Shown: piece by piece, positions 13,176 to 17,858 of the stretch
Layout: the number at the start of each line of letters is the position of its first letter
How positions within the stretch are numbered: position 1 is the stretch's first letter
Assembly (NCBI RefSeq): GCF_000245015.1
Contig: NZ_JH600070.1
Location: 2,080,634 to 2,144,633 of the forward strand
From: Beggiatoa alba B18LD
GTDB taxonomy: Bacteria; Pseudomonadota; Gammaproteobacteria; Beggiatoales; Beggiatoaceae
DNA length: 64,000 nt
Reading direction: 5' to 3'
Position numbers and translations under genes: made by a program
Notes under the pieces: model-generated
Database searches by the model: none
What the model was told of the DNA's origin: nothing
The model's input: the letters and a program-made list of their open reading frames with translations, nothing else

Positions 13176-14225
13176 TTAAAACTCAATTCGTTGTCCTTGT
13201 TCAGCGAGTATGAATGTCAGATTTAAATGATTTTCTTCTGTTAGTTCGTTTTGTATTAAAGCACGGTTATCTATTTGTGTATCGGTATTTGGTTTGATGT
13301 GGGTCACGATGATAGTGAGGTCTTTTAACGCTTGTTCGGGGTGTTCGCTGTCCACTTGTTGAGCAAGCTGTTGTAGGCTTTGCAGAATCAGTGCGGGGGT
13401 TAAATGTCCATAAAGTTGGTTAGTTGGGCGTGCATTGGGGTAGGCGGATTCAATAAAAATGCCGTTTAGCTGTTGCTTTTTCACTAATGGGGCGATGTAT
13501 GCCCAAAGTTGTTGGAGTTTATCACTGTTTTCAATACTATCCGCGCCTGTATCGCCGAGATAAAGGGCATAGTGTTCATTCGCTTGAATCAGGAAGGCGG
13601 TAGAATCGTAATTTTTTCCATGACTGAGCGGAAAAGCAGTAACTTTAAGCGATGTATTTGGAATATCGACCGTTGTGGCTGGTTCTAGGGTGATGTAGTG
13701 GTATTTTTTTAAATAGGGTTGTACGCCTGCATCGGCAAAATTGGGAAAAATTCGCCAGTTAAAGAGATTGTTTTGTATATCGGTTAAGACGATTGGCAAG
13801 CCAAGAATAGGTTTTGCGCTGTCGTCTGTTGCATTTAAAATCAACCCATTAAGATGGTCTAAGTGCGCATGGCTGATTAAGTAGGCTTTGACGTGTTGGC
13901 GCAGTAAATACATGGCGGGATTAACATCCGTAGGGATTGTTATCGTTGCGAAACTGCCTGCTTGTCTTGCAACGTTTAACCCTTGGTAAAGCGTGCCTGC
14001 ATCTAAGCAAATAAAGTCGGTAGAACCTGCAGGGGCTAGGAGATAAGCCGATAGGTTATTTTCTTCAATTCCACCCGCAACGCCTAATGGAATACTAACC
14101 CATTGTGTTTGCTTTACTTTTGTTTCAACAGCGATACAGTTCACACTTATCAGTAATAAACTGAAATAGCCCCAATATTGCCAACGCCAAAAAATGCTTT
14201 TTTGACAATGTGTTTTCTTATTCAT
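13176..14225 (-). CDS. Class II 3',5'-cyclic-nucleotide phosphodiesterase (CpdP/PDE1 type)
   Basis: 349 residues from ATG 14225, which has AAGAGG eight bases upstream; a GTG nine bases earlier is less likely. A hydrophobic N-terminal segment (about 14-32) suggests export or membrane anchoring. The metallo-beta-lactamase fold shows the family signature SHAHLDHLNGL (metal ligands), then SHGKNYDSTAF, LYLGDTGAD and IIVTHIKPN. Class II phosphodiesterases hydrolyse cAMP or cGMP; a periplasmic member is known from Vibrio (CpdP). Whether it acts on extracellular or internal nucleotide depends on the uncertain signal. It is the first gene of the minus-strand run. Confidence 0.85.
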   Translation of the reverse strand: MNKKTHCQKSIFWRWQYWGYFSLLLISVNCIAVETKVKQTQWVSIPLGVAGGIEENNLSAYLLAPAGSTDFICLDAGTLYQGLNVARQAGSFATITIPTDVNPAMYLLRQHVKAYLISHAHLDHLNGLILNATDDSAKPILGLPIVLTDIQNNLFNWRIFPNFADAGVQPYLKKYHYITLEPATTVDIPNTSLKVTAFPLSHGKNYDSTAFLIQANEHYALYLGDTGADSIENSDKLQQLWAYIAPLVKKQQLNGIFIESAYPNARPTNQLYGHLTPALILQSLQQLAQQVDSEHPEQALKDLTIIVTHIKPNTDTQIDNRALIQNELTEENHLNLTFILAEQGQRIEF

Positions 14226-14271
14226 GCTATACACCTCTTAATTATCATTCAATAAATTCATTGATATATAT

Positions 14272-14811: not shown

Positions 14812-15051
14812 ATGGCTCGCTTAACCGTAGATGACTGTTTAAAACATGTAGAAAATCGCTTTTCATTGGTATTACTGGCAAGTAAACGCTCCCGCCAAAT
14901 TGCTTTGGGTGCTTCTCCCTTAGTTCCTGCTGGCAAACATAAACCGACGTTGGTTGCATTACGTGAAATCGCAGAAGGAAAAATTTCACGAGATAATATC
15001 GAAGAGCACAATAAAGGTATTCGTGACGTTCGTAAGGATGATATGGCGTAA
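14812..15051 (+). CDS. rpoZ: RNA polymerase omega subunit
   Basis: 79 residues beginning [20 protein letters not shown], followed by [11 protein letters not shown] and [15 protein letters not shown], the conserved omega core that wraps the beta-prime subunit. The length fits small gammaproteobacterial omegas. In proteobacteria this protein also forms one of the ppGpp sites on RNA polymerase, so its place directly before a spoT-like gene is functionally coherent and conserved. GAGGGA precedes the start. Confidence 0.95.
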
Positions 15052-15077
15052 GCCAGTATGCATTGGATGTCACTATC

Positions 15078-17294
15078 ATGTCTGCGCCGTGTAGTCTCAT
15101 TAACCGTATTTTAATCAGCGATGTTTGTGCGTTGATTGAAAAATATCTCGAACCGCAACAAGTTAAAGAAGTTTATCACGCCTATTTATTTGCCGCGGAA
15201 GCCCATGATGGTCAAATACGTCAATCTGGTGAAGCCTATATTTTTCACCCGTTGGCGGTCGCTTATATTTTGGCGAAATTGCAGATGGATTACCAAACGC
15301 TTTGCGCTGCAATTTTGCATGATGTTATTGAAGATACTGAAACGTCTAAAAGCCTGTTAGTCGCCGCGTTTGGTGAAACAGTTGCGGATTTAGTGGATGG
15401 AGTCACTAAATTAACCCGTATGCCTTTAGATAATCGTGAACAGACACAGGCAGCCAGTTTTCAAAAAATGATTATTGCCATGAATCACGATTTACGGGTC
15501 ATTATCATTAAACTGGCAGATCGATTACATAATATGCGCACGATTAGTGCGATGAAAAAACGTAGTTCACAAATCCGTATTGCTAAAGAAACATTAGAAA
15601 TTTACGCGCCTATCGCCCGCCGTTTAGGCATGGACTCTATCTATAGGGAGTTGCAAGATTTAAGTTTTTCCGCCATTTATCCTTATCGTTACCGTACCTT
15701 AATACATCATATGGATAAATTAGCGAGTAAACGCGGAGAATTGATGCGTAGTATTCAAACGGCAATGGAACAGCATCTCACTCGTCAACAGGTTGAGGCT
15801 AAACCCTGTATTCGTGAACGGCATTATTACAGCATTTATCAGCGGATGAAACATCGTAAAGCCTCTGATATAAAAGATAATCGTCGTAAAACTTTTTTAC
15901 AAGTGACTAATGTTGCTACCTTTCGCATTATCACAAATGACGTTGATAACTGTTATCGAGCTTTAGGTGTTGTTCATGGACTATATAAACCTGTAGAAGA
16001 GAAGTTTCGTGATCATATCGCAGTACCAAAAAGTAATGGTTATCAGTCTTTACACACTACCTTAATGGGCCCTCAAGGGATGCCTATCTGTGTGCAAATA
16101 CGCTCCAGCGAAATGCACGAAATTGGCGAGCGTGGTATCAGTGCTTTTGGATTATATAAGCTCGGCGAAAATCCAGAACAAGCGCATGATTGTCGGCAAG
16201 TGATTCGTCAACAAGCCAATAATTGGTTGCGTAGTCTGGTTGATATGCAAAAGAATGCCATTGATTCTATGGAGTTTTTAGAACACTTTAAAATGGATTT
16301 GTTTCCTAATGAAGTGTACGTCTTTACGCCAAAAGGAAAAATTCTCCAGTTACCCAGTGGCGCGACGGCGGTTGATTTTGCTTATGCGGTTCATAGCAAT
16401 ATTGGCGATAAATGCAGTGCGGTTAAAATTGATAATCAATATATGCCTTTATCTACGCCATTAGTCAGCGGACAAACCGTTGATATTCTAACTAATGAGT
16501 GGGCGCGTCCTAACCCGACATGGCTTAATTTTGTCGTGACAGGGCGAGCAATTGCGCGTATTCGGCGTTTCTTGCGCAAAATGCAACATGAGGAAGCCCA
16601 AGAAGTTGGCAGACGAATGCTTAATCAGGAGTTAGCGGCTTATCAATTGAGCGTGGAAACCTTAGATAGTGAGCAACAAAAGCATTTATTGACGCATTTT
16701 AAATTTGAGACGATGGAAACGCTGTTAACCGAAATCGGTTTTGGCAATATCATCGCGCTGATTGTTGCTCGTCAATTTGACCCACTCGCCAATAAAGAGC
16801 CGTCTAAAGTTCTGCCCTTAACGCAAGAAGAGCATATCGAAGGCAGTAATCGTCCGCTTATTATTAAAGGGACAGAAGGCGTTTTAATGACTTTTGCCCG
16901 TTGCTGTCGTCCCATACCTGGTGATGAAATTACCGCATTTGTCAGTAGTAGCAAAGGCATTACTGTACACACGAAATCCTGTAAAAACATTGCCGAATAT
17001 AAGCACCAATATGAAAAATGGTTAGCCGTTGAATGGGATGCAGAAACAGAGGGAACATTCTTTGTTGATATCCGTCTCGATGTGCCAAATCGTCCAGGGG
17101 TGCTAGCTACTGTCGCAACAACCTTATATAAATTAGAGGTTAATATAGACCAAATGAGTAGCGAACCTCGTGATGGCTTAAATAGCATCATGAAATTAAC
17201 GATACATGTGCGCAATCGTGACCATCTTGCTTCTATCATGCGTCAATTACGACATTTAGATGTCGTCACCCGTGTGCAACGGATTCGAGGGTAA
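15078..17294 (+). CDS. spoT: SpoT/RelA homologue with intact hydrolase and degenerate synthetase
   Basis: 738 residues from ATG 15078; an in-frame TTG lies 15 bases upstream. Domain order: HD hydrolase (about 20-190, with FHPLAVAYI, LHDVIEDTE and KLADRLHNM intact), RelA/SpoT synthetase (about 235-350), TGS (about 385-445) and C-terminal ACT (about 660-735, preceded by a CCRPIPGDEI stretch). In the synthetase the motif usually D-x-x-A-F-R reads NVATFR (Asn278), and the motif usually E-V-Q-I-R reads CVQIRS (Cys338). These positions correspond to the catalytic Asp and Glu of RelA/SpoT enzymes. NGYQSLHT remains. I infer a (p)ppGpp hydrolase with little or no synthesis. Located between rpoZ and ygfB. 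Confidence 0.92.
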   Translation: MSAPCSLINRILISDVCALIEKYLEPQQVKEVYHAYLFAAEAHDGQIRQSGEAYIFHPLAVAYILAKLQMDYQTLCAAILHDVIEDTETSKSLLVAAFGETVADLVDGVTKLTRMPLDNREQTQAASFQKMIIAMNHDLRVIIIKLADRLHNMRTISAMKKRSSQIRIAKETLEIYAPIARRLGMDSIYRELQDLSFSAIYPYRYRTLIHHMDKLASKRGELMRSIQTAMEQHLTRQQVEAKPCIRERHYYSIYQRMKHRKASDIKDNRRKTFLQVTNVATFRIITNDVDNCYRALGVVHGLYKPVEEKFRDHIAVPKSNGYQSLHTTLMGPQGMPICVQIRSSEMHEIGERGISAFGLYKLGENPEQAHDCRQVIRQQANNWLRSLVDMQKNAIDSMEFLEHFKMDLFPNEVYVFTPKGKILQLPSGATAVDFAYAVHSNIGDKCSAVKIDNQYMPLSTPLVSGQTVDILTNEWARPNPTWLNFVVTGRAIARIRRFLRKMQHEEAQEVGRRMLNQELAAYQLSVETLDSEQQKHLLTHFKFETMETLLTEIGFGNIIALIVARQFDPLANKEPSKVLPLTQEEHIEGSNRPLIIKGTEGVLMTFARCCRPIPGDEITAFVSSSKGITVHTKSCKNIAEYKHQYEKWLAVEWDAETEGTFFVDIRLDVPNRPGVLATVATTLYKLEVNIDQMSSEPRDGLNSIMKLTIHVRNRDHLASIMRQLRHLDVVTRVQRIRG

Positions 17295-17297
17295 TCC

Positions 17298-17858
17298 ATG
17301 ATGAAAGTTGATTTTTATCAACCTTTAAATAAATCATTACAACAAGTTGGCGCATTGATGGATATTGCTGAAGCACATGGCATTCTATGTGGTATGCTCT
17401 GTGCCTCTCCCCATGATACGTCTTATGAATGTTGGATAAAACACGTATTGGGTGAAAGTAGTGGGAAAGACCTGTTAGCCGAAGAAGCACAACAACAGTT
17501 GATTGCATTACGGGAATATACGCAACATCAACTGAATGCAGATAATTTTGAATTTAGCCTTTTAATTCCGCAAGATGACGAACCGCTCTACACTCGCACC
17601 CAAGCCTTAAGCGGTTGGTGTGAAGGCTTCATTTTTGGGCTTAGTTTGGCAGGATTGCATGATATTCGACAATTTGAAGAAAATATTCAAGACTTTATCA
17701 AAGATGTGCTAAATATTTCCCATCTTGCCCCCCTGACTACTAGCACAGAAGAGGACGAAGCGGCTTATATGGAATTGGTTGAATATATTCGGATTGGGGT
17801 TTCTAATTTTTATGAAACCGCCGAAGAAAATATTCAACTGCCAACGATGCCCTCGTAA
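17298..17858 (+). CDS. ygfB: UPF0149 family protein YgfB
   Basis: 186 residues, helical, with the UPF0149 pattern: an early AEAHGILCGMLCA, a central ALSGWCEGFIFGLSLAG and a C-terminal EYIRIGVSNFYE. The structure of family members is known, but the biochemical role is not settled; in Pseudomonas YgfB has been linked to regulation of gene expression. It starts four bases after the spoT stop with GAGGGT as ribosome site. It precedes pepP, as in many gammaproteobacteria. Confidence 0.88.
   Translation: MMKVDFYQPLNKSLQQVGALMDIAEAHGILCGMLCASPHDTSYECWIKHVLGESSGKDLLAEEAQQQLIALREYTQHQLNADNFEFSLLIPQDDEPLYTRTQALSGWCEGFIFGLSLAGLHDIRQFEENIQDFIKDVLNISHLAPLTTSTEEDEAAYMELVEYIRIGVSNFYETAEENIQLPTMPS

Follow-up and report, generated by a model that had tools for sequence, protein, structure and literature searches.

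The SpoT protein of the filamentous sulfur bacterium Beggiatoa alba B18LD retains an intact hydrolase domain, and both catalytic acids of its (p)ppGpp synthetase domain are replaced. The hydrolase-only state, SpoT[Hs], has been described in print from Moraxellaceae (in the accessible parts of PMC3153485 and PMC9974481), which makes the comparison drawn in an initial sequence-only reading of this DNA an apt one. The same state now appears in a second family, the Beggiatoaceae, and differs there by the retention of guanosine-pocket residues. Considering that hydrolase-only SpoT was previously available from one family, this second and well-sampled family adds a pocket-retaining case. It makes it possible to examine how much of an inactive synthetase the hydrolase requires for its control, and whether guanine nucleotides influence that control. 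A literature search turned up no previous mention of degenerate SpoT proteins in Beggiatoaceae; for Thiomargarita, the available text of PMC4853749 goes no further than naming a '(p)ppGpp synthase/hydrolase'.

The window analyzed here is a stretch of 64,000 nucleotides, and the spoT gene, a long RelA/SpoT homologue, lies on its plus strand at 15078..17294. The open reading frame is borne out: it runs from an ATG at 15078 to a stop ending at 17294, is open throughout and encodes 738 amino acids, with an alternative in-frame TTG start at 15063. Pfam assigns HD_4, RelA_SpoT, TGS, RelA_AH_RIS and ACT domains, each above its cut-off. The HD hydrolase domain spans residues 35-185 (15180..15632), the RelA_SpoT synthetase domain (PF04607) residues 246-363 (15813..16166), and the TGS, AH/RIS and ACT regulatory domains together occupy 16314..17282. 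The gene is an orthologue of SpoT rather than of RelA. Among NCBIfam equivalogs it scores 777.8 bits against the SpoT-type model PRK11092 (below the curated cut-off of 947 bits for that model) versus 396.9 bits against the RelA-type PRK10872, and in the tree the family SpoTs cluster with other SpoTs, apart from RelA, with a support of 100. Upstream, rpoZ (RNA polymerase omega; 14812..15051, plus strand, PF01192) marks the canonical rpoZ-spoT locus, an arrangement found in 20 of the 24 family loci examined. Only three bases downstream of spoT is a UPF0149-family gene (17298..17858, plus strand, PF03695), which is probably co-transcribed with it and which follows spoT in 9 of those 24 loci. In its rpoZ-spoT locus, its HD-SYN-TGS-AH/RIS-ACT order and its HD and C-terminal signatures, the protein resembles the SpoT[HS] of most Beta- and Gammaproteobacteria, such as E. 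coli and Salmonella. It departs from SpoT[HS] in the synthetase domain, where the active enzymes keep the Asp, the Glu and nearly always the His-Trp.

The sequence-only reading had pointed to two replaced catalytic positions and a lost His-Trp pair, and had called for a structure-based alignment with RelA/SpoT. Alignment to solved Rel and RelA chains places Asn278 (codon at 15909..15911) opposite the catalytic Asp and Cys338 (16089..16091) opposite the catalytic Glu, positions that correspond to D259 and E319 in the numbering of Salmonella SpoT. Phe357 and Gly358 (16146..16151) stand where active enzymes have His-Trp. No Asp or Glu lies nearby in register, and the spacings to the K-x-N-x-Y-x3-H block and to Q340/R342 are exact. 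Altogether, 8 of 32 synthetase positions that are conserved in active SpoT and RelA are lost (K248R, K256R, D278N, Y313H, E338C, A355S, H357F and W358G). In the other four domains no conserved position is lost: 0 of 37 in HD (taken from active SpoTs), 0 of 9 in TGS, 0 of 14 in AH/RIS and 0 of 4 in ACT. This concentration of losses in one domain is beyond chance. The earlier statement that the HD motifs are intact is likewise borne out, and the substitutions support the proposal that the synthetase is probably dead, its inactivity being read from the sequence.

The same Asn and Cys are found in an independent genome, that of a sister Beggiatoa species (L004) whose SpoT is 85% identical. Chance or misalignment is ruled out by the exact motif spacing and by the sharing of the change at that level of identity; sequencing error or a pseudogene is ruled out by the open frame and by the recurrence of Asn and Cys in the second genome.

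How widespread is this state? The family sample comprised 42 genomes from 25 genera, the whole order in the collection being this one family; PMC11172852 likewise counts 25 genera in the Beggiatoaceae of GTDB. A SpoT match was found in 37 of the 42, and all 37 SpoTs were read; a single-protein scan of genome contigs and a scan of viral contigs returned no relative. The Asp, the Glu or both are missing from 36 of the 37, and both are missing from nine. The Asp (position 278) is kept in only 4 of 37, and the Glu (position 338) in 25 of 37. The sole family SpoT to keep both, L013 from genome G011, has lost five other conserved positions of the synthetase domain in addition to the conservative change K248R; since it does keep both acids, not every member of the family need be dead. 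Lying between M257 and position 278, the catalytic loop (residues 258-277 in B. alba, 15849..15908) measures 17-20 residues in 31 of 37 family SpoTs, compared to 11 in all 15 outgroup SpoTs, so that these 31 proteins carry 6 to 9 extra residues. Hydrolase residues H57, H81, D82, E85, D86 and D148 are all present in each of 33 near-complete family SpoTs. The predicted loss of the synthetase is therefore a property of the whole family and not of one genome, and a recent loss confined to a single genome is ruled out by this census.

Outside the family, both acids are kept in 111 of 115 SpoTs from other gammaproteobacterial families. These 115 consist of a set of 15 and a set of 100, the latter drawn from about 124 loci with a SpoT match and weighted toward the less similar. 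The Asp or the Glu is lost in four of the 100 (L162, L165, L187 and L188), and in each of the four genomes PF04607 also matches, with a higher score, another protein that is about as large as RelA. Among 80 further loci from named organisms (two of which, L211 and L214, belong to Beggiatoaceae), one acid is lost in each of two organisms outside the family, namely Balneatrix alpica (L272, Asp to Ala) and Rodentibacter ratti (L284, Glu to Asp). These six cases suggest that loss of a synthetase acid may have occurred more than twice.

Whether the Beggiatoaceae lost the synthetase on their own is a question for the trees. A tree built without the synthetase columns joins the family SpoTs in one clade with a support of 100, and this clade is recovered at 98-100 over several trees (one of which used 88 rows from about 150). 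In an AU test on a 30-row tree, a joint clade of the family with the four degenerate SpoTs L162, L165, L187 and L188 was not rejected (p 0.146), nor was a clade of the family with each of the four singly. Because the joint clade survives, the independence of the family loss is probable from the general tree, short of a demonstration. The idea of a loss parallel to that in Moraxellaceae accordingly stands as likely and stops short of proof, both for this reason and since the trees hold no sequence known as Moraxellaceae, the SpoT of that family having been compared by alignment alone.

If SpoT has ceased to make alarmone, another enzyme would be expected to do so, and a separate RelA had been proposed as the place to look. 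The genome (4,265,146 bases in 3 contigs, estimated 100% complete) was searched in full with PF04607 and yielded two proteins, SpoT and one at G000:C2:3144520-3146652 (L001). In the second, the motifs read DIRAVR, EVQIRT and SHWRYK, while the HD motif is altered; the intact Asp, Glu and His-Trp, together with the altered HD, identify it as RelA. No further synthetase was found in this genome by PF04607, and the arrangement proposed earlier, in which SpoT serves only as a hydrolase and an intact RelA is encoded elsewhere, matches the sequence data. A third HD_4 protein of 196 amino acids with HD motifs present (G000:C2, about 4109300-4109900; L035:1342-1932, minus strand) appears to be like the small alarmone hydrolases, and similar matches occur in most family genomes. 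Counting SpoT, this protein and RelA, the genome would have two likely alarmone hydrolases and one synthetase. For comparison, A. baumannii is described as having RelA, hydrolase-only SpoT, a small hydrolase and a putative small synthetase (PMC12742793, in the part available). PF04607 is present in 42 of 42 family genomes, and the Asp, Glu and Trp are kept in 38 of 38 family RelA loci. From a separate 34-row display of RelA sequences, six fragments were dropped before counting.

These results are best explained by a model in which a dead pseudo-synthetase scaffolds and tunes an active hydrolase, with SpoT in the SpoT[Hs] state and RelA as the sole alarmone maker; we regard this model as very probably correct. 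The sequences themselves show the replaced residues, the undamaged HD motifs, a complete RelA, the spread of the pattern over the family and continuing purifying selection (see below); that synthesis is absent, that hydrolysis is present and that the pseudo-synthetase has a regulatory role we infer. RelA alone would make (p)ppGpp, and SpoT would remove it. With neither the Mg-binding Asp nor the catalytic Glu in place, the pseudo-synthetase would carry out no catalysis. Its retention would reflect two remaining tasks, namely to keep the domains of the enzyme assembled and to tune the hydrolase. It may also bind a guanine nucleotide. Alarmone production in these sulfur bacteria should then depend on RelA alone, in which case starvation signals that reach SpoT could act only by slowing hydrolysis. 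The arrangement is the mirror image of RelA[hS], likewise a long RSH protein with one of its two catalytic domains degenerate: RelA[hS] lost the hydrolase, and Beggiatoa SpoT has apparently lost the synthetase.

Which parts of the synthetase domain have been kept? In RelSeq, R241 and R269 sandwich the adenine, Y308, N306 and K304/K305 contact the guanosine, and K243, K251 and H312 contact phosphates (PMC7983052 and PMC13299517, in the parts available). With exact motif spacing, the first five sites correspond here to R246, R283, Y322, N320 and K318, and the phosphate contacts to K248, K256 and H326. The B. alba protein keeps all four of K318, N320, Y322 and H326, a block encoded at 16029..16055. 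Across the 37 family SpoTs, H326 is kept in all, N320 and Y322 in 36 each, and K318 in 31 (five of the remainder have Arg). The adenosine sites and the two phosphate-contacting lysines are kept less often, with R246 in 25, K248 in 17, K256 in 21 and R283 in 29 of 37. The guanosine set is better kept than the adenosine plus catalytic set (Mann-Whitney p 0.007, with 4 and 6 sites in 33 sequences). The domain is thus selectively stripped, as far as its residues can tell: catalysis and the adenosine side would be lost, while the fold and the residues of the guanosine pocket remain.

The preferred model also has a stronger version, compatible with it, that takes these residues at face value: the pseudoenzyme would bind GDP or GTP (or ppGpp) in the guanosine pocket and so switch the hydrolase, such that hydrolysis follows the guanine-nucleotide pool. 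We consider this version possible but unlikely. The contrast between the guanosine residues (31 to 37 of 37) and the Asp, Glu, R246, K248 and K256 speaks for it, as does the p value just given. The Acinetobacter protein also fits, having lost these residues and, according to the accessible part of PMC9974481 and the 7qpr alignment, still folding without binding GDP. The B. alba protein itself, moreover, keeps R246 and R283, whose counterparts in Rel face the adenine. On the other hand, conservation at the four sites does not exceed that at all the other positions which active enzymes conserve (p 0.27), so that structure alone may explain their retention. The adenosine arginines are kept in many members too (R283 in 29 of 37). 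Moreover, the site sets are small and were picked after reading the literature. In its fullest version the idea makes Beggiatoaceae SpoT a two-part sensor-hydrolase, in which synthesis has been shed, the loop enlarged and the pocket held by selection, with GDP/GTP binding setting the rate of alarmone destruction; this too we offer only tentatively.

Like A. baumannii SpoT (PDB 7qpr), Beggiatoa SpoT is full-length, has an intact HD domain and a substituted catalytic Asp, and is accompanied by a separate intact RelA. A. baumannii SpoT has lost the guanosine pocket (the Y329 equivalent is Asn), does not bind GDP and has a reorganized pseudo-synthetase, as described in the available part of PMC9974481. 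At the four pocket sites it has Leu, Gly, Asn and Met in the 7qpr alignment, whereas Beggiatoa SpoT keeps all four residues and has the longer catalytic loop. Beggiatoa SpoT thereby departs from the Moraxellaceae type of SpoT[Hs] in that the pocket residues are present.

A quite different view is that the synthetase domain is functionless and simply drifting, without any present role. Such neutral decay would account for the many replacements at position 278 (10 residue types, including Asp) and in the similarly varied 357-361 segment, and for a mean within-family identity of 0.493 in the synthetase domain, well below the 0.656 of the HD domain; in 60 of the 111 active SpoTs the corresponding values are 0.684 and 0.649. 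It is nevertheless improbable. When the two Beggiatoa genomes are compared, the synthetase domain has a pN/pS of 0.117, no higher than the 0.142 of HD (0.139 for the whole gene), although with pS at about 0.68, synonymous sites are near saturation and these ratios from a single species pair are rough. There is no internal stop in any of the 37 family matches, and at 12 of the 32 conserved synthetase sites at least 33 of 34 sequences retain the residue. (The fragment L053, which lacks the HD half, was left out of the trees and the domain means.) The synthetase domain is, by these measures, under purifying selection in Beggiatoa, and its divergence combined with present constraint fits a history in which catalysis was lost long ago and constraint later returned. 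In the predicted structure (mean pLDDT 80.9) the synthetase fold is preserved, residues 261-270 of the enlarged loop being its weak spot, and residues 9-359 superpose on the N-terminal domains of S. aureus Rel (327 aligned residues, 1.7 A, Z 38.2). The alignment behind this model consists mostly of active SpoTs and so pulls it toward the Rel fold, and with a pTM of 0.56 the overall domain arrangement is not reliable.

A caveat to the preferred model is that in some enzymes an Asp replaced by Asn still permits a trace of activity. The notion that the synthetase keeps some activity, weak or altered, in which the roles of Asp and Glu have passed to another residue or nucleotide, can draw on the largely preserved active-site shell (K248 and K256 having become Arg) and on the family members that retain an acid, yet it is very unlikely: neither B. 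alba nor its sister species has either acid, no other acid is seen in register that could compensate, and in E. coli SpoT the single matching change E319Q already abolishes significant synthetase activity and leaves ppGpp decay normal (PMC6085430, in the part available).

Several minor observations concern the other alarmone genes and the neighborhood of spoT. Three of the 38 family RelA loci, which the motif string suggests are L063, L072 and L087, differ from typical RelA in that the hydrolase positions still carry H-D and E-D. Extra PF04607 proteins with weaker scores and open frames of 331-432 residues occur in five family genomes (G026:C87, G188:C662, G017:C284, G032:C241 and G190:C2224), and are possible small synthetases. 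Finally, a protein of the PDEase_II family (class II cAMP phosphodiesterases) with a hydrophobic N-terminus is encoded on the minus strand at 13176-14234, divergent from rpoZ-spoT.
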